DNA from: Labia minor
Taxonomy: Eukaryota > Arthropoda > Insecta > Dermaptera > Spongiphoridae
Direction of reading: 5' to 3'
NCBI GenBank assembly: GCA_963082975.1
Contig: OY720348.1
Span: 17,599,146 to 17,663,145 of the forward strand
DNA length: 64,000 bases
In this document: positions 7,814 through 61,235 of the stretch, one piece after another
Position numbering within the stretch: the stretch's first letter is position 1
How the letters are laid out: every line of letters begins with the position of its first letter
Program-made: the position numbers and the translations under genes
The notes under the pieces: model-generated
What the model saw: the letters and a program-made list of their open reading frames with translations, nothing else
Databases searched by the model: none
What the model was told of the DNA's origin: nothing

Positions 7814-7939
7814 ACACACACAGACATTTTTCTCAACCTTAGTGAAAATGATTCAGGAACCTTCAAAAAGTATAAAAACATCAAAATCTCAACATCGAAA
7901 ATTTTCGTGATCGCAATACTATCTCTGGCGAGATAGTAA
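7375..7939 (-). mobile_element. HINE family A copy 2 (3' end lost)
   Basis: On the minus strand it starts at about 7939 with ACTATCTCGCCAGAGATAG and carries the (GT)n core, which appears as (CA)n at 7782-7824, and the CACGTG region. It ends in AT-rich DNA near 7380 without the 3' inverted repeat and hairpin. Confidence 0.8.
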
Positions 7940-7964
7940 AAAATGATTCATTATTATTGGATTT

Positions 7965-8060
7965 GGCTGGTAATATTAATACCTGAGACACCGAGCTCGC
8001 TCTACCCTTTAAAAAATATTGATATACAATTCTTTAATTATTTATTACAATTATTAAATG
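7965..8060. repeat. Dispersed repeat R3, copy 1
   Basis: TAATACCTGAGACACCGAGCT followed by CCCTTTAAAAAATATTGATA. Near-identical sequence occurs at 50385-50460, and a diverged copy at 27238-27330. CCGAGCT..GCTCG could form a short hairpin. Confidence 0.6.
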
Positions 8061-9618: not shown

Positions 9619-9851
9619 ATAATAATAATAATTAAGCGAATATTTGTTACGAAAATTGTATACTGTTATATGTCTTTCGAAATGATCCCTTTATTTTTCT
9701 CTATTTCTCTCTCACTCACACTCTCAACTAAAATTTATCTTATTCTCTAGATTGTAAGAAGTTTCACTTCCGCCACGTGTACGATGCTGCACATTTTGCT
9801 TTTTTTTATCAATTTTTTCAATTTTTTTTTATACCATAATTCGCGTTTCTT

Positions 9852-10502
9852 ACCGACCGACGATAGTAAGGGAGGTATTGTTTTCACACCAAATTTCACA
9901 TGTGGAGATTTTTACATATCTCCACGAATCATGCATTTTCTTAACAGAAAAAAGTATTTTTAGCATGATGTCTGTCCGTCCGTCTGTCTGTCCGTCTGTC
10001 CGTCTGTCCGTCCGTATAGATGTGTACAGCCTGAACGGCTTAACGGATTTTGATGAAATTTGGTATATTTACTTAATGCATCAGTGGGATGAATTGATCA
10101 ACTTTTGGTGCAAATCCGGAAACCGGAAGTGGTAGTATTAGCGATCGACGATAAGAAGGGAAGGGTTATTTTCGCACCAAATTTCACATGAGGAGATTTT
10201 TTTTACATATAACCACGAATGTATTGGTTTTATCCTCGGGAAAAATCATCTTCATTATGTTTTTCTTAATTTAAAATTATATGACGTCACCCAGCCCTTC
10301 ATGACGTCACAGCCTCGGGTAACGCCGGCTACCTCAGCTATATATTATAAATAAAATAAAATTAAAAATATTTATGTTATATCCATATCTGTTTTTTATT
10401 ACATTAATAGATATATTAAAATTATTTGAAATTGTTTCTGTAGCTGGAAATTAATTTATTTCAAACCGTCGGTCGGTTCGGACCTGGCCACAGGTCAACT
10501 TA
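9852..10502 (+). mobile_element. HINE family B copy 1 (full length)
   Basis: The 5' end ACCGACCGACG (9852) is exactly inverted at 10467-10477 (CGTCGGTCGGT). A 6-bp-stem hairpin, GACCTG-GCCA-CAGGTC, follows at 10481-10496. The core holds GTCCGTCTGTCTGTCC tandem repeats (about 9973-10015), then an AACGGATTTTGATGAAATTT block. Subterminal inverted repeats, a GTCC/GTCT core and a 3' hairpin are the DINE-1/HINE plan. A short ORF (9878-10135) is a by-product of the repeat. Confidence 0.85.
10282..10310 (+). promoter_or_regulatory. Paired CRE-like sites in HINE B
   Basis: TGACGTCA occurs at 10282-10289 and 10302-10309, 20 bp apart. The pair recurs at the same place in the 28 kb copy. Confidence 0.5.
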
Positions 10503-10618
10503 TTTTTATTAATGGTTTTAAAAGTCCCCTAAAAGTTAATATTTTTTTTTTATATTTAAAAATTTAAATTTTTTTTAATATTATAAAATATTATTAATTT
10601 TTTTATTTCCAATATTTT

Positions 10619-19029: not shown

Positions 19030-19440
19030 AGTAAATATTAATTTTAGTGTTGAATTGTTGAGAAAAAGGACATTTTTAAAAAAAAAATGATTTTTGTTTG
19101 TTTGTATTTTATTGCAAAAGATACACCACTATTTTGGGTATATCCAAGTCTCTTGATTTTTATTATTATTATTATTATTAGCTGAAAAAATTCGTACTTC
19201 AATACGTTTAATATCATTAGTATGAAGGACTACTGACAAAAATTAGTAAAAGTTAAGTTTAACATTGATAATTAATTAATAAACTTAAAGAACTTAGAAA
19301 AATTTCAATAAGTAAATTTGACTATTTTCAAAAGTTAAAATTTTTTAAATTTTTGCTATATATTAATAAAATAATATATATATATATATGAATTTATAAA
19401 GTAAGAATGTATAAATTTATTACTCTCATTTTGGACCTAT
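19030..19440. other. AT-rich stretch; 3' end shared with 33.1 kb
   Basis: The last ~70 bp (19370-19441, ending TTTATTACTCTCATTTT) closely match 33085-33156, directly before another family A element. The rest is unassigned. Confidence 0.5.
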
Positions 19441-19441
19441 T

Positions 19442-19906
19442 TTACTATCTCGAAAGAGTATTGAGATCACGAAAATTTTCGATGTCGAGATTTTGATGTT
19501 TTTATACGTTTTGAAGGTCCCTGAGTCATTTTCACTAAGGTTGAGAAAAATGTCTGTTTGTGTATGTGTGTATGTTGACAAGATTACGTAAAAACTTTTT
19601 GAGCTAGAATTAGGAAATTTAGTACATGGACATTATTCAAAATTCGTAGTTCTCTATCAACATTTGAGACATGTAGCTCATCCGGAAGTGGGACATTACC
19701 TATTACGTTTTGATTTTTTTCCCTCTAAACTGAACGTAGAAAAAGATGAAATGATTAAAAATTGTATAAAACTGCTATATATAAAATTTCAGCTTGATTG
19801 AATCGCTGAAAGTACCGGAATTAATTTTTTAACACGACTGCAAATAATATATGTGTTAATTAATCCAATTCAAATATGCGAGATAGTCGAGTGAAGACAC
19901 TCCAGA
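19442..19906 (+). mobile_element. HINE family A copy 7
   Basis: The 5' end is slightly shortened (ACTATCTCGAAAGAG). About 100 bp including the CACGTG region is deleted near the 3' end (after CGACTGCAAATAAT). The inverted repeat and 3' hairpin are present. Confidence 0.85.
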
Positions 19907-22536: not shown

Positions 22537-23537
22537 CACCTGTCCCCCGTTTTACACGGAAGATTGGTTCCGAACTAAACCGTGTACAACGAAATACGCT
22601 AAAATGTGGATAATTCAATAACTTTTTATTCTTTTATTATTTCATTAGGTCGTATATGTAAGTACATAATACAGAATTTAATTCATTCTATATTAGGAAC
22701 AAAAAATATAAGAATATAAATGCGTGTATGCAGCCAATATACACTTTTACCAGTTTTTACTATCTCTCACGGTTTTCCAATCGGTCTCCTTACTCCAATA
22801 TATTTTTCGTAAATATAATATAATAACTGAAAATTTTAAAGTATACTTTATCTCATACATAAATTAAATATTAAAATTTCATTTTTTTTACCAGAGACCT
22901 TATTGCGATGACGAAAAATTTCGATGTCTAGATTTTGATGTTTTTATAGGTTTTGAAGGTTCTTGAATCATTTTCACTAAGTTTGAGAAAAATGTTTGTG
23001 TGTGTATGTGTGTATGTATGTAGACAAGATTACGCAAAAACGGTTAGAGCTAGAATCATGAAATTTGGTACACGGGCATTATTCAAAATTTGTAGTTTTT
23101 TATCAACTTTTGAGAAATGTAGCTCTCTACCTTTGATTACGTTTTGATTTTTTTTCCTCTAAAGTGACCGTAAAAATAAAGATATATGTTTGATAGTTTT
23201 TCACAGGATTAAAAATTGTATAAAACTGCTATATATAGAATTTCAGGTTGATTGAATAGATGAAAGTACCGAAATTCATTATTTAATTGCAGATTACACG
23301 CGCCAACACGTGACGTGGTGCCATCAACCAAGAGTCAAACATACGCTGGTTTAATAAATATTATTTATTAATTTTAATATATAATTTATAATTAATTAAA
23401 TTTTATTTAAATATATTATATATTATTTAATCCAATTCAAATTGGGAGATAGTAGAGTGGAGACACTCCAGCTTATTTGAAATCCGTTAATTTATAAACC
23501 GTTTAAAAAAAGTACCGTGTAAAACGGGGGACAGATG
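22537..23537. mobile_element. TIR element C (CACCTGTCCCCCG ends), interrupted by HINE A
   Basis: The left end CACCTGTCCCCCGTTTTACA (22537) is inverted at the right end (ACGGGGGACAGATG, to 23537), with TATA on both sides. Its own sequence is 22537-22756 and 23473-23537; a family A element fills the middle. A second left half lies inverted at 30569-31109. The TA-type site and CCCCCG-rich ends loosely resemble pogo/Tigger-type MITEs; the superfamily is not certain. Confidence 0.7.
22757..23471 (+). mobile_element. HINE family A copy 8 with captured sequence at its 5' end
   Basis: The 5' terminal TTTTTACTATCTC (22755) is followed not by the usual sequence but by about 120 bp beginning TCACGGTTTTCC, a LINE 3'-end piece plus flank. 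It then re-enters the family A body at ACCAGAGACCTTATTGCG (22890). The same foreign stretch precedes the copy at 52.85 kb. The 3' hairpin is at 23455-23471. Confidence 0.75.
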
Positions 23538-23539
23538 TA

Positions 23540-24241
23540 TATTATTTTCTAGCTATATATTAGATTGCATACAAATTATAAATTTGTTATATATAAATTT
23601 ATATATAAACAAACAGGAGAAACTAGTTAAATATTCCTTTCCTTCACATAATTTTTATACAATTGAAGAAAGAATCGATCTGTATTGGTATAAAAAAAAA
23701 ACATTTTAATTAATTTTTTATTCTTATTAAAAGTAATTCATAATAATCTCACTATTTCTTTGAATAATATTCTTTTAAAATCATAATAAATATAAAAACA
23801 AACATTTTTCATGTTTATATTATACTATTATACTAACAATATTTAATAGATAAAGAATTTATAAATTCAATATAAATATATTTATTTAAATAATTCTGTG
23901 AATTGTTGCAATTAATATTTTTATAATCATTGGGCAGCCATATAGGTTCTTTGGATCAAAGGTGTCAGTTGAACACCCCCCGTGGAGTTTCCCGTTCATA
24001 TCCAAGATATTCGTTAGTTTTAATATTAATTTGATCAAAATGAAAATTAAGATATTAGCCACGATCACATTCATTAATCTTGTGAGTATTTATATAAAAT
24101 TAATAAACTTTAATAATCTAGACTAATAAATAAATTAATTATCGATTATATTTTAAGCAACTATTATGCTATGAAAAATAATAATAGTTTATTAATATCA
24201 TAGATTATAAATAAATTGATTTGTGATTGGATTTTCTATTG
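23540..24241. other. AT-rich region; first part duplicated at 58.4-58.6 kb
   Basis: 23538-23650 (ATTATTTTCTAGCTATATAT onward) matches 58460-58568. The rest is unassigned AT-rich DNA. Confidence 0.55.
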
Positions 24242-27655: not shown

Positions 27656-27679
27656 GATAGTTTCAGTTTTATATAATTT

Positions 27680-28150
27680 TTTTCACACCAAATTTCACAT
27701 GTGGAGATTTTTACATATCTCCACGAATCATGCAATTTTCTTAACAGAAAAAAGTATTTTTAGCATGATGTCTGTCCGTCCGTCTGTCCGTCCGTATAGA
27801 TATGTACAGCCTGAACGGCTCAACTGATTTCGATGAAATTTGGTATATTTACTTAATGCATCAGTGGGATGAATTGATCAACTTTTGGTGCAATTCTAGA
27901 AACCGGAAGTGGTAGTATTAGCGATCGAAGATAGGAAGGAAAGGGTTATTTACACACCAAATTTCACATGAGGAGATTTTTTACATATCACCACGATTCA
28001 TGCACTTTGTATTGGTTTTATCCTCGAGAAAAATCATATTTATTAGTTTTTTCTTGATTTAAAATTATATGACGTCATCCAGCCATTCATGACGTCACAG
28101 TCTGGTCTTACATATATATTATAAATAAAATAAAATTAAAAATATTTATG
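27680..28150 (+). mobile_element. HINE family B copy, ends missing
   Basis: It runs from CACACCAAATTTCACATGTG through the GTCCGTCC core (27772-27797) to the ATGTTGTATTCATATC block. The ACCGACCGACG start and the 3' hairpin are lost; after 28160 it joins the TTTATAAATATTATCTATGG segment. Confidence 0.8.
28070..28097 (+). promoter_or_regulatory. Paired CRE-like sites
   Basis: TGACGTCA at 28070-28077 and 28090-28097, with the same 20-bp spacing as in the 10.3 kb copy. Confidence 0.5.
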
Positions 28151-28225
28151 TTGTATTCATATCTGTTTTTTCTTTATAAATATTATCTATGGTGTGAATT
28201 TCAAAAAAATCCATAGAGCGGTTTA

Positions 28226-28799: not shown

Positions 28800-29760
28800 A
28801 ATATAATAAAACCCATATTTTTTTTTCAAAAACAATCTTTTTCTTTAAAAGATATTCATATATATTCTTAAGGAGGCAGCTAACCGAGAGGGTAGCGTAT
28901 ATATAAATTTATATGAAAATTATATGAAAAATTAATAAAATATATAATAATTTCTATTTCATTCTAAAATGATTTTGATAAGTCTAATCACAATATATAA
29001 AATTAATTCAATATAATTAGAAAATCTTATATATATATATATATATTTATTACATTTAGTTATATTATATATTTATATAAATAAATTAAATATCAGATTA
29101 TTTTATTTAAATTAATAAAAAAAAAAATGATTTATATAATTACAAGTAAAAATTTATATATGAAAAATTAATAAAATATATAATAATTTCTATTTCATTC
29201 TAAAATGAGTTTGATAAGTTAAAAATATAAATTGTAATGATATATATTAATATTAAAGATTTTAAAAATGAAATTCAATCATTTGTTTTATTTTTTAATA
29301 TGACTATTCTAATAATAATATTACTTGTATGTTTTAAATTGATAAAACATATATTTTAGTATATATTCATATTATTATTTTATATTATATTTTATTAAAT
29401 ATTAATATTTTATTTTTATAAGAGAATGATTAATTAATTTCAAGAATTGAACGCGACTCGCCAGCACGTTGCTGTTATTATAATCGAGTGATAAGCAAGT
29501 CGGCCAATTCCATGAAAAGGAATTAAAAGAAAAATTAAAAAAGGAAAAAATAGAATTTATTTAGTTTCGATTGAGCAGTGAAAAGGTTAAGACGCCAAGG
29601 GGGTTGAGTGAACCTTGCTAGGTAAGAAATACATGGACTTTGAATTATTATTAATAATATAGAATACATTATATATAAGAATATTAATAAGTAAATATTA
29701 AGTATTTATTATATAATTAATCCTCTGTACCTGGTTCATTTCATATCATTGCTAAATAAA
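28800..29760. other. AT-rich region with short repeats
   Basis: 28871-28898 resembles the SINE head (GGCAGC...GAGAGGGTAGCGTA). A direct repeat of about 65 bp (ATATATAATAATTTCTATTT block) lies near 28920-28985 and 29150-29215. The 29445-29625 patch is less AT-rich and ends CTTGCTAG|GTAAGA, a donor-like site on plus, with no supporting frame. Confidence 0.4.
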
Positions 29761-29763
29761 TAA

Positions 29764-30568
29764 GCTGTAGTGTCTCCACTCGACTATCTCGCAATTTGTA
29801 TTGGATTAAATAAGATAATATATTATATTTAAATTAAATTTAATTAATTATAAAAATTATAAATTAAAATTAATAAATAATATTTATTAAACCAGCGCAT
29901 GATTAGCTCTTGGTTGATGGCACCAGGTCACGTGTTGGCGCGTGTGATTTGCAGTGTTAAAAAATTAATTTTGGTACTTTCAGCGATTCAATAAAGCTGA
30001 AATTCTATATATAGCAGTTTTATACAATTTTTAATCATGTGAAAAACTATCAAACATATATCTTTATTTTTACGGTCACTTTAGAGGAAAAAAAATCAAA
30101 ACGTAATCAAAGATTGAGCTACATTTCTCAAAAGTTGATAGAAAACTACGAATTTTGAATAATGCCCATGTAGCAAATTTCATGATTCTAGCTCAAACGG
30201 TTTTTGCGTAATCTTGTCTACATAAACACACACACACACACACACACAGAGAGAGAGACATTTTTCTCAACTTTAGTGAAAATGATTCACGTGGTAGGTA
30301 ATGGTCCTTCCTCTTCCGAATGAGCTACATTTCTCAAAAATTGATAGAAGACTACGAATTTTGAATAATACCCGTGTACCAAATTTCACCATTCTAGCTC
30401 AAACCGTTTTTGCGTAATCTTGTCTACATACATACAGACATACACACAGAGAGACATTTTTCTCAACCTTAGTGAAAATGATTCAGGAACCTTCAAAACG
30501 TATAAAAACATCAAAATCTCAACATCGAAAATTTTCGTGATCACAATACTATCTCTGGCGAGATAGTA
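29764..30568 (-). mobile_element. HINE family A copy 11 with internal duplication
   Basis: On the minus strand it starts at 30568 (CTCGCCAGAGATAG). After the first pass through the core and GGTAATGACC-type block, it jumps at about 30288 back to the AGTGAAAATGA point and repeats the core. It ends with the 3' hairpin at 29764-29782. Confidence 0.85.
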
Positions 30569-31109
30569 AAAGCTGGTAAAAGTGTATATTCGGCTTCATA
30601 CACGCATTTATATTCTTATATTTTTACTATCTCGTAAGAGATAGAATTGCGATCACGAACATTTTCGATGTTGAGATTTTGATGTTTTTATACGTTTTGA
30701 AGGTTCCTGAATCATTTTCACTAAAAGGTTGAGAAAAATATGTGTGTGTGTGTCTGTAACCAAGATTACGCAAAAATGGTTTGAGCTAGAATGATGAAAT
30801 TTGGTACATGGGCATTATTCAAAATTCGTAGTTTTCTATCAACTTTTGAGAAATGTAGCTCAACCGGAAGAGGGTCATTACTTACAACGTTTTGATTTTT
30901 TTTCCTCTAATTTGTTGCTAATATAGAATGAATTAAATTCTGTATTATGTACTTACATATACGACCTAATGAAATAATAAAAGAATTAAAATAGGCTTGA
31001 ATTATTCACATTTTAGTGTATTTCGTTTTACACGATTTTAACATAGAAAATTTAAAATTTACACGGTTTTGTTCGGAACCAATCTTCGGTGTAAAACGGG
31101 GGACAGGTG
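30569..31109 (-). mobile_element. TIR element C, second copy (left half), split by HINE A
   Basis: The inverted end ACGGGGGACAGGTG is at 31096-31109. The sequence matches 22537-22756 read backwards, interrupted at 30622-30908 by a family A fragment. As in copy 1, it meets a family A 5' end right after TTTTACCAG. Confidence 0.7.
30622..30908 (+). mobile_element. HINE family A copy 12, 3'-truncated
   Basis: The 5' end ACTATCTCGTAAGAGATAG has an intact hairpin. It runs through the core and stops at TTTCCTCTAA, where element C sequence resumes. Confidence 0.85.
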
Positions 31110-31114
31110 TATAA

Positions 31115-31660
31115 GAAAACATATATTTTTTTTTTCAAAAACAATCTCTTTCTTTAAAAGATATTCATATATAAAATATGAATTACAATCTGTATGAATT
31201 GTATATCTTATTTCAACTAGAATATTTAATAAATATTATCTAAAAATATTCATTTAATTAAAAATGCGAACTTTTAGAATAAAGTTCGAAATAAATAATT
31301 TAAATATTTGTTTATTATGAATAAAAATAAATATTTATATATTTTAATAATTCTGGGAATTGTTAGAATTTAATTTAATTTTTTTTTTTTTTTGATTGTC
31401 GAACGTGTGTCGACAGGTTTTACTGAATCAAGGTAGAGGGGCGTGATTTAACTTTCATTCTTATTAAGGATTTTATACCAGAAAATTTTTAGTTTTTTGT
31501 TAAAACGAATTGAAATCTAATGACAAAATAGGTTCAATAATTTGTAATTAGAAAAGTAAAAAGGGGGATATTTATAATAATCGGCTTATTCATTAATATC
31601 TCAGGTAAGACATATTTTTATATTAATATTCTCAATTCGTAAAGAATCATTTTTTTAAAA
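31115..31660. other. Unassigned AT-rich region
   Basis: 31128-31180 duplicates 28806-28857 (CAAAAACAATCT...AAAAGATATTCATATAT). A T-run lies at 31378-31394. Nothing else recognised. Confidence 0.45.
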
Positions 31661-32749: not shown

Positions 32750-33155
32750 TATATATATATATATTAAAAATTAAATAGATCTTTTATATATTTTATTTGA
32801 AAACCAAAAGCAAATAATGAAATCGGTCCAAAATTGAGCGGAATAAACTTTGAATGTAAACAAACTCACCTTCCCCTCTCATTTTCCGCTTATTTAAATC
32901 CTAATTTAACTGATTTAGAATTTGAACCACATATTTTTGAAAGATATTAACAGAGCATATTTATTAGAATAAATAAATAGAACGGTTCAGTTAAATAATG
33001 GAAAGAAAACGTGGAGATGAATTTTAAACAAAAATACAACCCTTATATCAGTGGATAAAATAAAATTCCATCTCGGGGATATATTAATAAAATAATATAT
33101 GCGTATATATGATAACTAAGATTGTATAAATTTATTACTCTCATTTTTGAACCTT
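32750..33155. other. Unassigned AT-rich DNA
   Basis: Nothing recognised except the final ~70 bp (33085-33156), which match 19370-19441 before another family A copy. Confidence 0.5.
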
Positions 33156-33156
33156 T

Positions 33157-33719
33157 TTTACTATCTCTCCAGAGTATTGCGATCACGAAAAATTTCGACG
33201 TCGAGATTTTGATGTTTTTATACGTTTTTAAGGTTCCTGAGTCATTTACACTAAGGTTGAGAAAAATGTCTGTCTGTGTGTGTGTATGTAGACAAGATTA
33301 CGTAAAAACGGTTTGAGCTAGAATAATGAAATTTGGTACACGGACATTATTCAAAATTTGTAGTTTTCTATTAACTTTTCAGAAACGTAGCTCATTCAGA
33401 GGAGGGTCATTATCTACCACGTTTTGATTTTTTTCCTCTAAAGTGACCGTAAAAATAAAGATATATGTTTGATAGTTTTTCACATGATAAAAAATTGTAT
33501 AAAACTGCTATATATAGAATTTCAGCTTGATTGAATCGCTAAAAGTACCGGAATTAATTTTTAAAATGTTTTAACACGTTTACTACGCACTGCTTTAATA
33601 AATATTATTTAATCTTATATATAATTTATAATTTAATTAATTAAATTTAATTTAAATATAATATATGTTAATTAATCCAGTTCAAATTTGCGAGATAGTC
33701 GAGTGGAGACACTCCAGAT
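33157..33719 (+). mobile_element. HINE family A copy 14
   Basis: 5' end ACTATCTCTCCAGAGTATTG; core, inverted repeat and 3' hairpin present. The CACGTG region is deleted (GTTTTAACACGTTTACTACG instead). Confidence 0.85.
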
Positions 33720-45459: not shown

Positions 45460-46556
45460 TTTTGCTATAATAATAGGGAATGTTAAATATTATAAATAAA
45501 ATAAATAACATTTCATTTGTTAGCTAATGTGAAAGGATAATGATGTGTGTAGAGGTTAATAATTGATATGTTAATATAATACCATTGACATTAAAATGAA
45601 TCGAAAATTCTCCATACGCTCACTCCTTCATACATCAGAAGATAAGCGCCTCTTCCTTCTATTAATAATAATAATTATTCATATATTATAATAGATATGG
45701 ATATTAAAATATTTTTATTTAGTCATTTTTCAATTATTTTGTTTAATTGATTTTCAAAATATTAATGCGATATAGTTAGAACTCTGAAAAGTTATTTTTG
45801 GTTAATTCTGGGACTATTGTTCAGATTTTATTTTTTATTTTTTAAGAGTAATTTATTTCAATAATTGTTTTAATTTTTATAATATAAAATTGAAATAATA
45901 AAATATTAATATATTATAAAAGTAATTTTCAAATAATAATAATTATAAAATACTTATAATAAAATTTAAACAGTTTACTGGAGGCATTATGTATTGGAAA
46001 CATTATTGACATGATTATTATTCTCCCGAGGGCATCAATATTATATATATATATATATGTATGTATATCGGTTTTTGAAAATTCTCCATAGAATGACAGT
46101 GATACGATTTACTGAAAATGATCTTTTATTCTGACACAAACGAATATTTGATTAAAAACTTAAATACAAATATATATATATATATATATATATATTGAAT
46201 GTATATATGTATACTATATATAAATGTAAAGTTTAGTATAAAAAATTTCATTTCCAGTTAAATGAAAAATAAATAAATATCTTTTTTTCGTTCGTGATAA
46301 TGGAGCTGTCCGGAATGAATGATTAAAACAATTAAATACTGTTTGGATTTGTCTTCTTTTTTTTACTCCTAAAAAAAGAACGATAGGAGGGTTAGGGGAA
46401 TGAAAGGGTAAAAAGGGAATGACAATGTGTTGATTACTAAATTCGATCTATCGATAGACAATTTATTGAGAAAAAATTGATAATTTTATTTTAAATTAAT
46501 TCTTATTGGATTTTTAAAGATATTTATGAAATGTTAGTTTATTTTTTTTTAACATT
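45460..46556. other. Unassigned AT-rich region
   Basis: TA runs at about 46040-46058 and 46170-46194. No genes or recognised repeats. Confidence 0.5.
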
Positions 46557-46557
46557 T

Positions 46558-47454
46558 TTACTATCTCGCCAGAGATAGTATTGCGATCACGAAAATTTTC
46601 GATGTCAAGATTTTAATGTTTGGTTACGTTTTGAGGGGTCCTGAGTCATTTTCACTAAGGTTGAGAAAAATGTCTGTGTGTGTATGTGTGTATGTAGACA
46701 AGATTACGCAACAACCGTCTGAGCTAGAATAATGAAATTTGCTATAAGGGCATTATTCAAAATTCGTAGTTTTCTACCAACTTTCGAAAAATGTAGGTCA
46801 ACCGGAAGAGGGTCATTACCTACCACGTTTTGATTTTTTTTTCCTCTAAACCAGTGATTCTCAACCTTTTTTTTTACCGCGGCACACTTTTAACAGTTTA
46901 AAAATTTGGCGGCACACAAAGAAAAAGATAAGTGTAAAAGTTTACCATATTGAAAAAAACAATACCTCCCTTACGGTCGGTAAAAAAGTGGTGCAAAAAC
47001 GGTTTTTTTTATCGAACCAAATTGAAAGAATTTAGAAAAAAAGTCGGAAATGTTTAAGAGCCTCATAATCTTGCGGCACAATTTTGAAAATCTCGCGACA
47101 CGCTAAAGTGCCGCGGCACAGTGGTTGAGAATCACTGCCATAAACTGACCGTAAAAATAAAGTTATATGTTTGATAGTTTTTCACATAATTAAAAATTTT
47201 ATAAAACTGCTATATATAGAATTTCAGCTTGATTGAATTGCTGAAAGTACCGGAATCAATTATTTAACACTGCAAATAACGCGCCAGCACGTGACGTGGT
47301 GCCATCAACAAAGAGTCAATCACGCGCTGGTTTAATAAATATTATTTATTAATTTTAATTTATAATATTAAATTAAATTTAAATATAATATATGTGTTAA
47401 TTAATCCAATTCAAATTGCGAGATTGCCGAGTGGAGACACTCCAGCTTATTTAA
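46558..47454 (+). mobile_element. HINE family A copy 17, split by a hAT element
   Basis: Both ends are intact (CTATCTCGCCAGAGATAG; 3' GAGTGGAGACACTC with an altered inverted repeat GAGATTGCCG). The hAT at 46852-47137 interrupts the CCTCTAAACTGACC block. Confidence 0.9.
46852..47137. mobile_element. hAT-type MITE nested in HINE A
   Basis: Terminal repeats CAGTGATTCTCAACC and GGTTGAGAATCACTG are perfect over 15 bp. Flanking 8-mers CTCTAAAC and CCATAAAC match at 6 of 8. ACCGCGGCACAC and GTGCCGCGGCAC extend the end similarity. The interior (46960-46985) carries an inverted scrap of the family B 5' end (AATACCTCCCTTACGGTCGG). Confidence 0.9.
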
Positions 47455-47455
47455 T

Positions 47456-47966
47456 CTATGTTAATTGTTGATCAATTATTGATGCAAAAAATTACAATAT
47501 TCCTAAAAAGTCACAAAAAATTTTAAATCTATTATTATTTTAATACTCTCCATATGATGAAATATAAAGATATGTAATATATTTGATTATACAAAATTAA
47601 TTCTAACCAATGTGGATTTTATTTAATTTATTTAACTATAAAATTGGATTTTTTTGAAATTAAAAATAAATTAAGTTATTATCATTGGAATATAGAAAGC
47701 GGCTGAAAAATGGGTGGAGGGGAGTGCAATCTCTCAGTCGTATCATTAAATATCTACCATCATGGGTGTCCAAACATTTCGCCCCAAGGGCTGGATTGCA
47801 AAGTGCGGCGGGCCACATGAATATGTGAACTGAACAATTTCTTTATGATATTTAAATTTTTTTTTTTTTGTAACAGTACATTACAAATACACTAATATCT
47901 CAATTACTGTATAACTATATATTTTTCTACTAAATTTATAAATTATTATTTTTTTAATCCTTTTTA
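47456..47966. other. AT-rich DNA with possible hAT end
   Basis: CATGGGTGTCCAAACATTTC at 47761, followed by GCGGGCCACA, resembles a hAT left end. Related GCGGACCGG sequence at 48367 may be its other side, split by family B. Not proven. Confidence 0.35.
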
Positions 47967-48320
47967 CCGACTGACGAGAGTAAGTAGGTATTGTTTTCAC
48001 AACAAATTTCACATGAGGAGATATTCTACATATCTCCACGAATCATGCACTTTGTATTAGTTTTACCCTCGGGAAAAATCATCTTCGTTAGTTTTTTCTT
48101 AATTTAAAATTATATGATGTCACCCAGGCCTTCATAACCTCACAGCCAGCGCCTCAATATATATTATAAATAAAATAAAATTAAAAATATTTATGTTCTA
48201 TCCATATCTGTTTTTTATTGCATTAACAGATACATTTAAATTATTTGAAATTGTTTCTGTAGCTGAAAATTAATTTATTTCAAACTGTCGATCGGTTCTG
48301 TGCCTGGCAAACTTATTTTT
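47967..48320 (+). mobile_element. HINE family B, internally deleted
   Basis: 5' ACCGACTGACGAGAG is joined directly to the second CACATGAGGAGAT block, so the microsatellite core is missing. The 3' end is decayed (CTGTCGATCGGTTCTG, TGCCTGGCAAACTTATT). Confidence 0.75.
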
Positions 48321-50384: not shown

Positions 50385-50640
50385 GGGATACCGAGCTGTC
50401 GCTTGACCCTTTAAAAAATATTGATATACAATTCTTTAATTATTAATTACAATTATTAAATGTCACATCATTGCAACAATCTGATTAAAATGAGTGGAAC
50501 TTGGGGTCCTCAATAATGATACGTGGTTCACCGAGCCACCACTCGGTCAATAAAAAAAATGATTCTTTATTACCGGGTTTGGCTGGTAATATTAATACCT
50601 GATTCACCGAGTCACCGTTCCAATAATTTAAAGAACTTAA
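50385..50640. repeat. Dispersed repeat R3, copy 3
   Basis: It contains ACCTGGGATACCGAGCTGTC with CCCTTTAAAAAATATTGATA. After about 55 bp of other DNA come two more CACCGAG-containing segments, one shared with 7940-7985 (TTTGGCTGGTAATATTAATA). Confidence 0.6.
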
Positions 50641-52194: not shown

Positions 52195-52765
52195 AACTTG
52201 AAAGTTTTTGATCACAGCAACAACATTCCTTCGACCATCCCAATCCTGAGATACCTCCATTCAACTCTTATTCTTTCTCAATCTCTCTTCACCCCCTCGT
52301 TATATTTTCTACTCTCCGGGTTCTTGTTTTTTTTTCAAAAAAACGATTCTCTCTTATCTTTTTTCATCTATTCTACACAGCTGTCCTGCCCTTCACCACC
52401 TACTCGCTAACCTTAACAATGTTTGGAGATGCATAGAAATGTTGCAATCCCTATGCAGTCTCCGCTATTTACCATATATTTCATCCCTCTCCAGTTCAAA
52501 AAATGCTATTTTTCAAATATAATGAATCTATTTTCGCTCTCCTAAATCATACACCAGAATACATAACATATTGTAAATATAATATAATCTCTCTCTCTCT
52601 CTCTCTGTGGCTCTACGGAACTTGAAAGTTCTTGGTCGTAACAACCACATTTGTTCAAGTATTCCTATCTTGAGCCACAACCATCCATTCCCTACCCTCT
52701 CCCATCTCTCTCACGGTTTTCCAAAAGGACGTTTTCCAATCGGTCTCCTTACCAATATATTTTTC
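52195..52765 (-). pseudogene. Two LINE 3' ends, degenerate
   Basis: A decayed copy (52198-52560) with TTGAAAGTTTTTGATC...GCAACAAC is followed by a clearer one (52590-52765): CTCTCTGTGGCTCTACGGAA, GGTCGTAACAACCACATTTG, then CCAATCGGTCTCC. Both are minus strand. No intact frame. Confidence 0.6.
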
Positions 52766-52845
52766 GTAAATATAATATAATAACTGAAAATTTTAAAGTA
52801 TACTTTATCTCTTACATAAATTAAATATTAAAATTTCATTTTTTT

Positions 52846-53424
52846 TACCAGAAATAGTATTGCGATCACGAAAATTTTCGATGACGAGATTTTGATGTTT
52901 ATATACGTTTTGAAGGTCCCTGAGTCATTTTTACTAAGGTTGAGAAAAATGTCTGTGTATGTGTGTGTTTGTATGTAGACAAGATTACGCAAAAACGGTT
53001 TGACCTAGAATAATCAAATTTTGCAAACGGGTATTATTCAAAATTCGTAGTTTTCTATCAACTTTTGAGGAATGTAGCTCATTCGGAAGAGGACAATTAA
53101 CTACCACTTTTACATTTTTTTCTCTAAACTGACCGTAAAAATAAAGATATATGTTTGATAGTTTATCACAGGATTAAAAATTGTATAAAACTGCTAGATA
53201 TAGAATTTCAGCTTGATTGAATTGGTGAAAGTACCGGAATTAATTTTTTAACACTGCAAATCACGCCCCAGCACGTGACATTGTACCATCAACAAAGAGC
53301 CAAACACGCGGTGGTTTAATAAATATTATTTATTTATTTTAATTTATAATTTATAATTAATTAAATTTAATTTAAATATAATATATGTGTTAATTAATCC
53401 AATTCAAAGTGGAGACACTCCAGA
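52846..53424 (+). mobile_element. HINE family A copy 19
   Basis: It begins at ACCAGAAATAGTATTGCG, with the first hairpin arm missing, after ~120 bp (52725-52845) shared with 22768-22888. The 3' end is shortened: AATTCAAAGTGGAGACACTC lacks GCGAGATAGTC. Confidence 0.85.
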
Positions 53425-53429
53425 TTTTT

Positions 53430-54386
53430 ATTTTGTACTTTATTAATTTATTTTTTTTATGGTTTGAAATTATTTTTATTTTACTTTAAATAATATCTAT
53501 GTATAGTATTTTATATAAAATTATCTTATCATAAAAAATAATAATGAATGTTTCTATCTATTTATTTATTATAAATATTTCAATATTTTAGTGATATTGA
53601 TCTTGAATTAAAAAAAAAAAATGTTTAAACATTTTTTAAAAAAATGTAATTATTCCTTGAATGATATCATAAGGACGTTTTTCATAATATGTATTTTTAA
53701 GGGAAAGTAAAAGAAATGTGAAATATTACCAATTTTGCTATTCCAATCGTGTAACGTATGTCTATGGAAGATTGATTGGTCAGGCTTAACAGGGACTTCG
53801 GAAGAAATTGCACCCCTTTATCTGTGTTTGGAATAGAAACGATAGAAAGGATCTATTCATACTGGTTAGCAAAAGAATTGTTAACCCCAAACCAAATCAT
53901 CAATTATATAATTTATAAATAACGACTGGTGTTTATTTAGTAAATTGTTGAAGAAAGGGAGATTTTCTTTTCTTTACAAAACACTAATATAAATTGAGAT
54001 TAATGTTTATTAATTTCAAATGTTTTAAAACTAAATTCTATTAAATATATCATTAAAATCTAACAAATATTCTAAATTTCAAAAAGATAGAGAGACAAGT
54101 AGTTATTTTTTAATGAATGATCTTGTTTAGTGGACATCAAGTTAGAAGTTCTTCGGATAATGAGCTGTAACTTCTGTCTCGGTTTACGAACAAATTTTCG
54201 GGTTCCGAGATTCAAGTTCATAGTTCAATGTGGTTACAACTAAAACAGTTTGAAAAAGAAGCTATTTCACTTAAATTATGACACATAATCACAAAAAAAA
54301 TCCCTCTTAAAATATTCTCTTGAAAATGGAGTCAAAATTGCCTGGAAACGTCGAAAATCATATCTCACAATTAAATATTTATAGAT
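53430..54386. other. AT-rich DNA with a Penelope-like motif
   Basis: CTTGAAAATGGAG and CCTGGAAACGTCG at 54318-54352 repeat the hammerhead-type layout seen at 28.7 kb. The rest is unassigned. Confidence 0.4.
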
Positions 54387-56562: not shown

Positions 56563-56570
56563 CTTTTTTT

Positions 56571-57193
56571 ACCGACCGACGATAGTAAAGGAGGTATTGT
56601 TTTCACACCAAATTTCACATGTGGAGATTTTTACATATCTCCACGAATCATGCATTTTCTTAACAGAAAAAAGTATTTTTAGCATGATGTCTGTCCGTCC
56701 GTCCGTCTGTCCTTATAGATGTGTACAGCCTAAACGGCTGAACGGATTTCGATGAAATTTGGTATATTTACTTAATGCATCAGTGGGATGAATTGATCAA
56801 CTTTTGGTGCAAATCCGGAAACCGGAAGTGGTAGTATTAGCGATCGACGATAGGAAGGGAAGGGTTATTTTCACACCAAATTTCACATGAGGAGATTTTT
56901 TTATATATCACCACGAATCATGCACTTTGTATTGGTTTTATCCTCGAGAAAAATCATATTTATTAGTTTTTTCTTGATTTAAAATTATATGACGTCATCC
57001 AGCCATTCATGGTCTTGCATATATATTATAAATAAAATAAAATTAAAAATGTTTATATTTATTATTTATGTATACATATCTGTTTTTTATTACATTAATA
57101 GATATATTAAAATTATTTGAAATTGTTTCTGTAGCTGGAAATTAATTTACTTCAAACCGTCGGTCGGTTCGGACCTGGCCACAGGTCAACTTA
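56571..57193 (+). mobile_element. HINE family B copy 5 (full length)
   Basis: 5' ACCGACCGACG; GTCCGTCC core at about 56694-56712; 3' inverted repeat CGTCGGTCGGT (57158-57168) and hairpin GACCTG-GCCA-CAGGTC (57172-57187). Only one CRE-like site remains (56990). Confidence 0.9.
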
Positions 57194-57194
57194 T

Positions 57195-57818
57195 CTTTAA
57201 AGGACTTGTTGCGGTCAATTATAGACCATACAAACCGTTTTGTGCTCCATTTTTCTTAATGTATGATACAAGTAATATTATAAATGTTTTTTTTTTCAAG
57301 AAGGTATTTTATTTATATATTTTATGTTATTTTTTATATTTTTACCCTTTTATGATCGGAAAGCATCGTAAACGGAAGGGTTATCTTTTTTTAAAAGGGT
57401 TTTCCATAAATTGAGAAATCGTAACAAACCCAATGAATTGCCATAAGTTCTATTTTATTATTATGAAGATTCGAATTTATGAATCTATCGACGAAATGGC
57501 CATTAAAAATACCAACCACTCAAGAGATTAATTATACTAACCAAACCTTTATATAATAAACAAATAAATAAGATCAAAACATCAATAAACATAAGTAAAA
57601 TGCATTTACAAAATTTCAACATCTCAAGGGTTAATAAAAAGATAATCAAAAATTAATAAACATTTCGCTCTGACTACAAATATTCATTTATAGGTTACAT
57701 AATTTTAAATATATGGTAGTAAACCGCCTTAAGAGAAATTTTCATAAAAAACACTATTATTCTGTAACAAAAGTGAGAATAAAAACAAAACAAGTGCTAA
57801 CCTATTGTATAACTATTC
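57195..57818. other. Unassigned AT-rich DNA
   Basis: No recognised repeat or gene. Confidence 0.5.
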
Positions 57819-57819
57819 T

Positions 57820-58390
57820 TAATATCTCGCCAGAGATAGTATTGCGATCATGAAAATTTTCGATGACGAGATTTTGATGTTTTTATACGTTTTGAAGGTC
57901 CCTGAGTCATTTTCACAAAGGTTGAGAAAATGTCTGTGTGTGTGTGTAGACAAGATTACATAAAAACGGTATGAGCTAGAATAATGAAATTTGGTACACG
58001 GACATTATTCAAAATTCGTAGTTTTCTATCAACTTTTGATAAATGCAGCACATCCGAAAGATGGTCATTTCTTACCACGTTTTCATTTTTTTTTCTATAA
58101 ACTGACCATAAAAATAAAGATATATGTTTCACATGATTAAAATTGTATAAAACTGTTATATATAGAATTTCATCTTGATTGAAAGTACCGAAATTAATTT
58201 TTTAACACTGCAAATCACGCGCCAGCACGTGACATGGTACCATCAACAAAGAGCCAAACACGCGGTGGTTTAATAAATATTATTTATTAATTTTAATTTA
58301 TAATTTCTAATTAATTAAATTTAATTTAAGTATACTATATATTATTTAATCCAATTTAAATTGCGAGATAGTCGAGTGGAGACTCTCCAG
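57820..58390 (+). mobile_element. HINE family A copy 22
   Basis: 5' ATATCTCGCCAGAGATAG, GT core, CACGTG region and 3' GCGAGATAGTCGAGTGGAGA are present. It is followed without a break by sequence shared with 23472-23650. Confidence 0.9.
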
Positions 58391-58568
58391 CTTATTTGAA
58401 ATCCGTTAATTTATAAACCGTGTAAAAAAAGTACCGTGTAAAACGGGGGACAGGTGTATATTATTTTCTAGCTATATATTAGATTGCATACCAATTATAA
58501 ATTTGTTATATATAAATTTATATATAAACAAACAGGAAACTAGTTAAATATTCCTTCCCTTCACTTAA
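58391..58568 (+). other. Transduced 3' flank: right end of element C plus host DNA
   Basis: It matches 23472-23650: CTTATTTGAAATCCGTTAAT, then the element C end ACGGGGGACAGGTG, then non-element DNA to CCTTCACTTAATTTT. No left half of element C is present here. Confidence 0.7.
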
Positions 58569-58573
58569 TTTTA

Positions 58574-58616
58574 TTCAATCCAAATTAGCGAGATAGTCGA
58601 GTGGAGAGACTCCAGA
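58574..58616 (+). mobile_element. Solo HINE family A 3' end
   Basis: Only the terminal ~43 bp: TCAATCCAAATTAGCGAGAT, then AGTCGAGTGGAGAGACTCCA. Confidence 0.8.
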
Positions 58617-59919: not shown

Positions 59920-60415
59920 AATAATGTCATTCATAAATTTATTTTAAGGATTGAAAGAAAGAAACAGACAATTAAATCTTACTTCATGTCTTCGTTCATA
60001 TTTATTTCATTAAAATACAAAATATTTCATATAAATAGTATATTTTTGTGTAATTAACTATATTATATAACTGTGATTTGTGTGGTTAACATTTTTTACT
60101 TTTCAATCGGAAAATTTTTTTTGAGAATAAAGTAATTATAATTCCGATTCACATTTCCGGTATGCGTTTGGTCACTAATCTCCACGTTTCAATTCATTCT
60201 GATTTCAAAAAATTGTCCCCCCCCCCCTCACCTTATCAATCCGATAGAATTAACAACCTCACGCGTTGCTTTTAATTGCTCAATCTTTTTCCTTTATCAA
60301 TTATTTTTAAACCATAATAATTTTTAAATAATTAATAATAATTTTAATATCGTTTTTACAAGTCCTATGTAATAAATAATATTTTTTTATATTTTGGTCA
60401 ATTTTTACCGACCGA
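59285..60415. other. Unassigned AT-rich region
   Basis: Long (AT)n at about 59882-59916. A C-rich run near 60216. No genes. Confidence 0.5.
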
Positions 60416-60416
60416 C

Positions 60417-61235
60417 GATAGTAAGGGTGGTGTTATTTTTACACGAAATTGCACATGTGGGGGTTTTTACATATCTCCACGAATCATGCATTTTGTTAAC
60501 AGAAAAAAGTATTTATAACCCTTTCCTTCCTATCGTCGATCGCTAATACTACTACTTCCGGTTTCCGGAATTGCACCAAAAGTTGATCAATTTATCCCAC
60601 TGATGCATTAAGTAAATATACCAAATTTCATCAAAATCGGTTGAGCCGTTCAGGCTGTACACATCTATACGGACGGACAGACGGACAGACGGACAGACGG
60701 ACGGACAGACATCATGCTAAAAATACTTTTTTCTGTTTAGAAAATGCATGATTCGTGGAGATATGTAAAAATCTCCACATGTGAAATTTGGTGTGAAAAC
60801 AATACCTCCCTTACTATCGTCAGTCGGTAAAAAGTATTTTTAGCATGATGTCTGTCCGTCCGTCCGTATAGATGTGTACAGCTTGAACGGCTCAACGGAT
60901 TTTGATAAAATTTGGTATATTTACTTAATGCATCAGTATGATGAATTGATCAACTTTTTGTGTATATCTGGAAACCGTAAGTGGTAATTTACAAATTATT
61001 AATTGTATATTCATTGTCAGATAATATTTCACTTAAAATATAGTGGTGATAAATAATTCATTAATTAAACTAAAAATGAAAATTAAGATAATATAATTTA
61101 GTCATTTGAATTCAAATTTTAAAAATATTTTTTTTATACTTTATATAAACATATAGGTACATATATAAAAATGTTGTTTGGAAATTAATTTATTTCAAAT
61201 CGGTTCTATGACTGGCCACAGCTCATATTTTTTAT
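60417..61235 (+). mobile_element. HINE family B variant with inverted B copy inside
   Basis: A plus copy starts ACCGACCGACG (60417) and runs to AAAAAAGTATTT (60515). It resumes at AAAAAGTATTTTTAGC (60834) and ends near 61235 (ACTGGCCACAGCTCAT). An inverted B copy occupies the gap. Confidence 0.75.
60516..60833 (-). mobile_element. Inverted HINE family B copy, 3'-truncated
   Basis: On the minus strand it starts ACCGACTGACGATAG at about 60832, passes the GTCC/GTCT core (GACAGACGG on plus, 60671-60710) and stops at GGAAAGGGTTA (60516). AAAAAGTATTT flanks both sides. Confidence 0.8.

Follow-up and report, generated by a model that had tools for sequence, protein, structure and literature searches.

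A double-ended HINE in Labia minor carrying flanking DNA probably acquired by copying between neighboring elements

When a rolling-circle element is followed by flanking DNA, end bypass is among the two explanations usually offered. About 11.7% of Helraiser events include the capture of flanking DNA even though the end is intact (Grabundzija et al. 2016, PMC4778049), and filler DNA has been argued for the insect Helitron Hel1 (Han et al. 2019, PMC6544945). For animal DNA transposons, gap filling and fork template switching with a local bias have been described (Tan et al. 2021, PMC8277862). HINEs, or DINE-1 elements, are non-autonomous Helentrons, and the account of Thomas et al. (2014, PMC4067079) gives them a palindromic 5' subterminal repeat, a matching 3' repeat, a 3' palindrome, a microsatellite, and a T-rich target. 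We describe here a HINE that is followed by flanking DNA and a second 3' end in a 64,000-nt stretch of Labia minor DNA (contig OY720348.1, positions 17,599,146 to 17,663,145), which is referred to below as the window.

The window has a GC content of 28% and contains many copies of one short repeat that can be assigned to the HINEs by its T-rich targets, its GT microsatellite, its palindromic 5' repeat, and its ends (TTTTTACTATCTCGCCAGAGATAGT... and ...GCGAGATAGTCGAGTGGAGACACTCCAG); each of the features listed above from Thomas et al. is shared. Copies are named here by position, as h57 (57820 to 58390), h22 (22754 to 23471), h52 (52848 to 53432), and h30 (30566 to 29765, minus strand). Alignments showed a palindromic subterminal repeat near the 5' end, with ACTATCTCGCCAGAGATAGT-like 5' ends, and GCGAGATAGT-like repeats near the 3' end. 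The 5' palindrome, folded as a typed majority string, gave -6.7 kcal/mol with a z score of -10.6. A palindrome near the 3' end, TGGAG-NNN-CTCCA, folds in both the first and the second 3' end of the h57 unit; z scores for these two ends and that of h22 are weak (-0.8 to -2.2). The 3' subterminal repeat starts about 28 to 35 bp from the 3' end, which is closer than the 38 to 60 bp given by Thomas et al. (2014, PMC4067079), a figure for mite families that may not define all HINEs.

Insertion into a T-rich target without target duplication, apart from a possible gain of Ts, was seen at one paralogous empty site. The HINE at 30621 to 30910, which is without its 3' part and is nested in the 30-kb copy of a second element, element C, lies inside a run of six T on the strand of that HINE. 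The corresponding empty site in element C at 22.7 kb has the T run whole, as six A on the plus strand at 22701 to 22706. A HINE-free site at 50554 to 50611 is 90% identical to the 5' flank of another copy, h07 (7938 to 7995), and ends in a T run; from this match, it is likely to be half of an empty site for h07. Exact searches of viral_contigs with a 28-base 3' end and with a 36-base body pattern, and of genome_contigs with a 20-base pattern, gave no match in these collections, which are unlikely to contain animal genomes, and blastn against phages, where an animal genome is not expected either, returned no match.

The unit at 57820 to 58616 lies on the plus strand and begins with h57, which has a 5' end with the palindromic subterminal repeat (TATCTCgccaGAGATA), a GT microsatellite, and a first 3' end (58345 to 58397) with a TGGAG-ACT-CTCCA hairpin. 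This first 3' end is of the '...TTATTTAAT...CCAGCTTATTT' type, as in the clade of the HINE in element C, and the copied tract may start here or earlier. It is followed by the captured flank (58391 to 58564), by an exit junction (58565 to 58584) with a short similarity, TAATTTT(T)AT.CAAT, common to the donor flank and the HINE 3' tail, and by a second HINE 3' end (58568 to 58616) of the 'CCAGA' type with an intact TGGAG-AGA-CTCCA hairpin. The original prediction had been that about 180 bp after h57 are the same as the sequence after the HINE ending at 23471 and take in host DNA as well as the right end of element C, that the 5' flank of h57 is different, and that the shared stretch stops near the start of a solo HINE 3' end. 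All of this was borne out by alignment. Over 176 alignment columns, the 174 bp at 58391 to 58564 were 96.6% identical to 23472 to 23647 (E 2.9e-81), and the match begins immediately at the HINE 3' end (distance 0). The match consists of 43 bp of element C interior, the 23-bp right terminal repeat (58434 to 58456), a TA (58457 to 58458), and about 106 bp of host DNA beyond, or up to 121 bp if the fading end at 58579 is included.

On the 5' side, the sequence from 57600 to 57830 gave a single AT-rich match, at 65%, within the window. The 5' edge of h57 is uncertain by a few bases, since HINE-to-HINE alignments start between 57803 and 57830. On the 3' side, homology fades at 58565 to 58579, at the start of the second 3' end, stretches of which are 82 to 90% like other HINE 3' ends, and between 58626 and about 59069 only AT-rich matches were found within the window. 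A separate repeat at 57010 to 57199 (92% to 10339 to 10508) and other repeats from 59.07 to 59.3 kb are not joined to the unit. The whole shared stretch is present in only two copies in the window, the remaining matches being the 25- to 27-bp element C terminal repeat, AT-rich sequence, and short self-palindromes. Homology beyond 58616 or on the 5' side, which had been named in advance as the mark of an ordinary segmental duplication, was thus not seen within the window. We rejected such a duplication because, within the window, the unit has no adjoining homology beyond 58625 or on its 5' side. A simple crossover between HINEs was also rejected, since the flank would then carry on, yet it stops at 58565 to 58579.

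Element C (22537 to 23537, plus strand) has 23-bp terminal inverted repeats (CACCTGTCCCCCGTTTTACACGG, one mismatch) with TA on both sides and carries h22 as a nested plus-strand HINE whose 5' palindrome is interrupted. As had been claimed, this is the sole locus in the window with both halves of element C; the left half alone is present at 31109 to 30560 (minus strand) and the right half alone at 58391 to 58456. The 22.5- to 23.5-kb locus or a sibling had also been proposed as the donor, and the 96.6% match agrees with this to the extent that the flank has a recent common source with the element C locus at 22.5 to 23.7 kb. Judged by this match, the 58-kb flank was derived from the element C locus or from a sibling of it. 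A sister of the 22.7-kb composite lies at 29765 to 31109 on the minus strand and consists of the left half of element C and a HINE, h30, with an uninterrupted 5' end, together with the second, nested HINE at 30621 to 30910; the right half of element C is absent. We also observed that h30 contains an internal repeat of its own 5' part (30114 to 30289 and 30318 to 30485) and that the sequence outside the left end of element C at 31.1 kb (31110 to 31173) is the same as 28802 to 28864 at 92%, possibly a related insertion site.

A one-step 3' transduction predicts equal divergence of the HINE and the flank from the donor, and comparing the two is a simple test that separates bypass from filler-type capture. 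Between h57 and the h22 locus, the flank differed at 5 of 181 sites (2.8%) and the HINE body (57830 to 58270) at 60 of 427 (14.1%; p 1e-5). The body still differed at 46 of 357 sites (p 7e-5) when alignment columns at most 4 from a gap were dropped together with 58050 to 58085, and the whole HINE differed at 55 of 477 (p 2e-4). Of the 25 aligned HINE rows, the 18 long ones entered both the tree and the distance table, and the fragments h46, h46L, h10, h30L, h30b, h56, and s58 were excluded. In the likelihood tree of these 18 bodies, h22 and h30 were sisters (99/98), and the closest body to h57 was that of h52 (88/71, not firm). A forced clade of h57 and h22 was rejected (AU p 0.0067), while the wider clade of h57, h22, and h30R, the 30-kb copy, was not rejected (p 0.078).

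The pair of h22 and h30 served as a control. The left half of element C differed between these two loci at 13 of 230 sites (two alignments summed, with about 10 bp of HINE edge included), and the HINE differed at 31 of 438 sites with near-gap columns dropped (p 0.52) or at 36 of 477 (p 0.43). The weak spot of this control is the first part of h22 versus h30: aligned apart, it had 11 differences in 93 sites, which compared with the left half of element C gives p 0.063; pooled over all HINE parts, the count was 47 of 570 (p 0.24). Thus, where a HINE and its flank moved together, the divergences of body and flank are not seen to lie as far apart as in the 58-kb unit. The body and the flank of the 58-kb unit do not have the same history, and the unequal divergence and the AU result together leave one-step terminator bypass unsupported. 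Of the predicted 3' transduction by terminator bypass, the recent common source of the flank and the closing second 3' end stand, but the one-step bypass itself does not. What is expected of filler or template-switch capture was found, namely, a source locus and a filler identity above that of the surroundings.

Recombination within the HINEs was examined in the same alignment. The PHI test, run with a custom script (18 rows, 70 sites), gave no recombination (p 0.45), and the trio of h57 with h52 and h22 was not significant (p 0.28). When 272 trios were scanned, each with 300 shuffles, all 12 listed trios were at the floor of 0.0033, uncorrected; among these 12, h07, whose 3' end is lost, is involved in 6 and h22 in 3, and we draw no inference from them. 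The first 3' end of h57 differs from h22 at 4 sites within its final 48 bp and is there no closer to h22 than to other copies of that type (rate versus flank, p 0.09). Given this lack of a closer match and the nonsignificant recombination tests on the HINEs, the entry point of the copied tract is placed between about 58270 and 58397.

Bypass had been expected to occur when the 3' hairpin is missed. However, the TGGAG-ACT-CTCCA stem of the first 3' end of h57 was intact on folding, and the loss of this hairpin, which bypass would favor without requiring it, was rejected. Although these letters are also present in the 3' end of h22, that end folds best as an overlapping GAGTG/CACTC stem. Fold energies for the first end of h57, the second end, and h22 were -3.7, -4.5, and -3.9 kcal/mol, with weak z scores of -0.8, -1.7, and -2.2, respectively. 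Since Helraiser, in the account of PMC4778049, can read past an intact end, the intact hairpin of h57 is compatible with bypass. The alternative downstream end that bypass calls for is present at 58568 to 58616, but the 22.7-kb locus has none after 23663. At position 58345, a T is found in the first 3' end of h57, in all 7 rows of the tree group that includes h22 (80/90), and in 1 of the 10 other rows outside that group. In the second 3' end, the base after CCAG is A, as in 8 of the 10 outside rows and in none of the 6 readable rows of the h22 group; at alignment column 58345, this end has T and not A, in a column that falls within the ambiguous junction. We read this second 3' end as presumably the recipient HINE's own.

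A second captured flank is located at the 5' end of h22. Within element C, h22 starts with TTTTTACTATCTC at 22754 to 22766 and is then interrupted by about 124 bp (22767 to 22890, plus strand), after which CCAGAGA occurs again at 22891. A 119-bp part of this piece (22772 to 22890) is the same as the 5' flank of h52 at 52731 to 52847 on the plus strand, with 1 of 117 sites differing, compared with 75 of 549 between the bodies of h22 and h52 (p 4e-6); a clade of h22 and h52 was rejected with the 18 bodies (p 0.0098). The left side of the 52.7-kb stretch is continuous with a dispersed repeat (52576 to 52788) that has matches at 3.4, 43, and 49 kb, indicating that the stretch belongs naturally at 52.7 kb. 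In the 30-kb sister, the HINE end at the same position of element C is uninterrupted, and this sister represents the recipient without the filler, indicating that the piece of about 124 bp was inserted into h22. Because this insertion lies in the 5' palindrome, failure of a 3' terminator cannot explain it. For the 58-kb case, no sister without filler was found within the window. Short similarities at the junctions were TAATTTT near 58566, TCTC at 22763 to 22766, and CCAGA at 22891 to 22895, which in this AT-rich sequence may be due to chance.

We lean slightly toward the view that the unit at 57820 to 58616 is a chimera of two HINE copies that arose by templated copying. One HINE, of the lineage represented by the h57 body and the second 3' end, would have paired near its 3' end with the HINE in element C. 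Synthesis would then have exited through the 3' end of the element C HINE into element C and host DNA for about 175 to 230 bp, and copying would have returned to the 3' tail of the recipient through short AT-rich similarity. The product would be one HINE with a first, copied 3' end, the captured flank, and its own 3' end. The best reading is filler or template-switch capture between HINE copies that overran an element boundary, which is a known kind of process, and the flank was probably acquired by copying between neighboring elements and not in one jump. We infer the direction of copying, the start of the copied tract, and the setting (break or fork repair with filler DNA or gap filling, versus rolling-circle copying). 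For both young cases, the most economical account would be copying that starts or ends in HINE homology, crosses the boundary of the other copy, and returns. Several results weigh against the chimera, namely, the negative recombination tests within the HINEs, the 4 differences from h22 in the 48 bp of the first 3' end, the nonrejection of the clade of h57, h22, and h30R, the weak spot of the control, and the T of the second 3' end at column 58345.

Such capture resembles the filler capture described for Hel1 in PMC6544945 in that the captured pieces lie inside an element, their source loci are traceable, and the junctions have short similarity, although in the window this may be due to chance. 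In the Hel1 account, however, the pieces are host DNA with end junctions of 2 to 13 bp, whereas the filler here crosses from another copy of the same element into the flank of that copy, which suggests that element homology may have primed the capture. Similar to Helraiser end bypass as reported in PMC4778049, the 58-kb unit has an intact 5' end, DNA beyond the 3' end, and a new 3' end downstream. In contrast to it, the body and the flank lack one donor history, the hairpin is kept, and a 5' counterpart exists. The cases of Tan et al. (2021, PMC8277862) appear to share local donors, short junction similarity, and capture after insertion with those in the window, although the data of that study concern elements with terminal inverted repeats, and Helitron template switching enters there by citation. 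In the one window analyzed, the donors of both captures lie only 35 and 30 kb away, much as gap filling in animal transposons is biased toward local donors (PMC8277862).

The intact 5' end of h57 and the closing 3' end are what bypass predicts, and they would also be accounted for by two steps, in which a true 3' transduction by bypass from the element C locus or an unsampled sibling reached the downstream HINE 3' end, and the body was later overwritten by non-allelic gene conversion from another copy or came from a sibling donor with a different body. The Helraiser capture rate cited above favors such a history, as does the gene conversion among copies of a Helitron-derived element documented in Drosophila (PMC4384637). 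We nevertheless consider it unlikely, since it requires an additional whole-body conversion or an unseen donor, the 22.7-kb locus offers no 3' end after 23663, the PHI test gave no sign of pervasive conversion, and the 5' case at 22767 to 22890 is left unexplained.

The order of features might also have been assembled from independent, older pieces if the right part of element C and the host flank were duplicated to 58 kb with part of a HINE and if separate HINE insertions, deletions, and repairs followed, with the second 3' end being a preexisting truncated HINE. The window is dense in HINE copies, some of them nested, and bat Helitrons are described as acquiring new 3' ends by insertion next to 5'-truncated copies (PMC4778049). 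However, the shared stretch begins exactly at the HINE 3' terminus, which here would have to be a chance hit, and nothing else of the duplicated locus is present on the 5' side; such an origin is improbable. Marginally less probable still is a dispersed composite repeat, in which host flank, the right end of element C, and the HINE 3' end form a multicopy family of their own with the two loci as members. The 30-kb locus also combines the left half of element C with a HINE inserted at the same position, indicating that the composite was copied at least once, but the flank occurs in only two copies in the 64-kb window, and the disagreement of the HINE bodies would go unexplained.

One-sided flank sharing was also sought among the other HINEs of the window. 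A scan of 22 HINE features, with 200 bp per side and flanks with more than 150 masked bases skipped, gave one further pair, h33 and h19, which have only the 5' flank in common at the element edge (87 bp at 84%; 33079 to 33159 and 19358 to 19443) and not the 3' flank. Their bodies differ at 39 of 365 sites and the flank differs no less, so that there is no sign of a younger flank. Of the four one-flank pairs thus counted in the window, 22.7/30 kb, 22.7/52.7 kb, and h33/h19 have the 5' flank in common and 22.7/58 kb the 3' flank; direct BLAST, and not the masked scan, detected the 22.7/52.7-kb pair. The flank is younger than the body only in the 22.7/52.7- and 22.7/58-kb pairs. Sharing on the 5' side is outside the reach of 3' bypass. 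It is conceivable, if doubtful, that HINE copies routinely trade flanks by boundary overrun on either the 5' or the 3' side, giving double-ended composites that may move as units with no failed terminator needed. If boundary overrun holds genome-wide, sequence capture by HINEs would be independent of 3' hairpin strength.

Other repeats were also observed in the window. A further family with 90 to 96% identity is present at 9846 to 10169, 27676 to 28157, 47956 to 48056, 56566 to 57063, and 60402 to 60986, and the copy at 56566 starts directly after a HINE 3' end. About 280 bp of other sequence, which may be a small nested element, divides the HINE at 46555 to 47445. Pfam searches with three open reading frames gave no match for two of them and retroelement-type matches for the third, at 20 to 1105 (361 amino acids), which matched DUF5641 and, below the cutoffs, two aspartyl protease models. 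Its matches suggest that this frame is a retroelement fragment, which we presume may be BEL/Pao-like.
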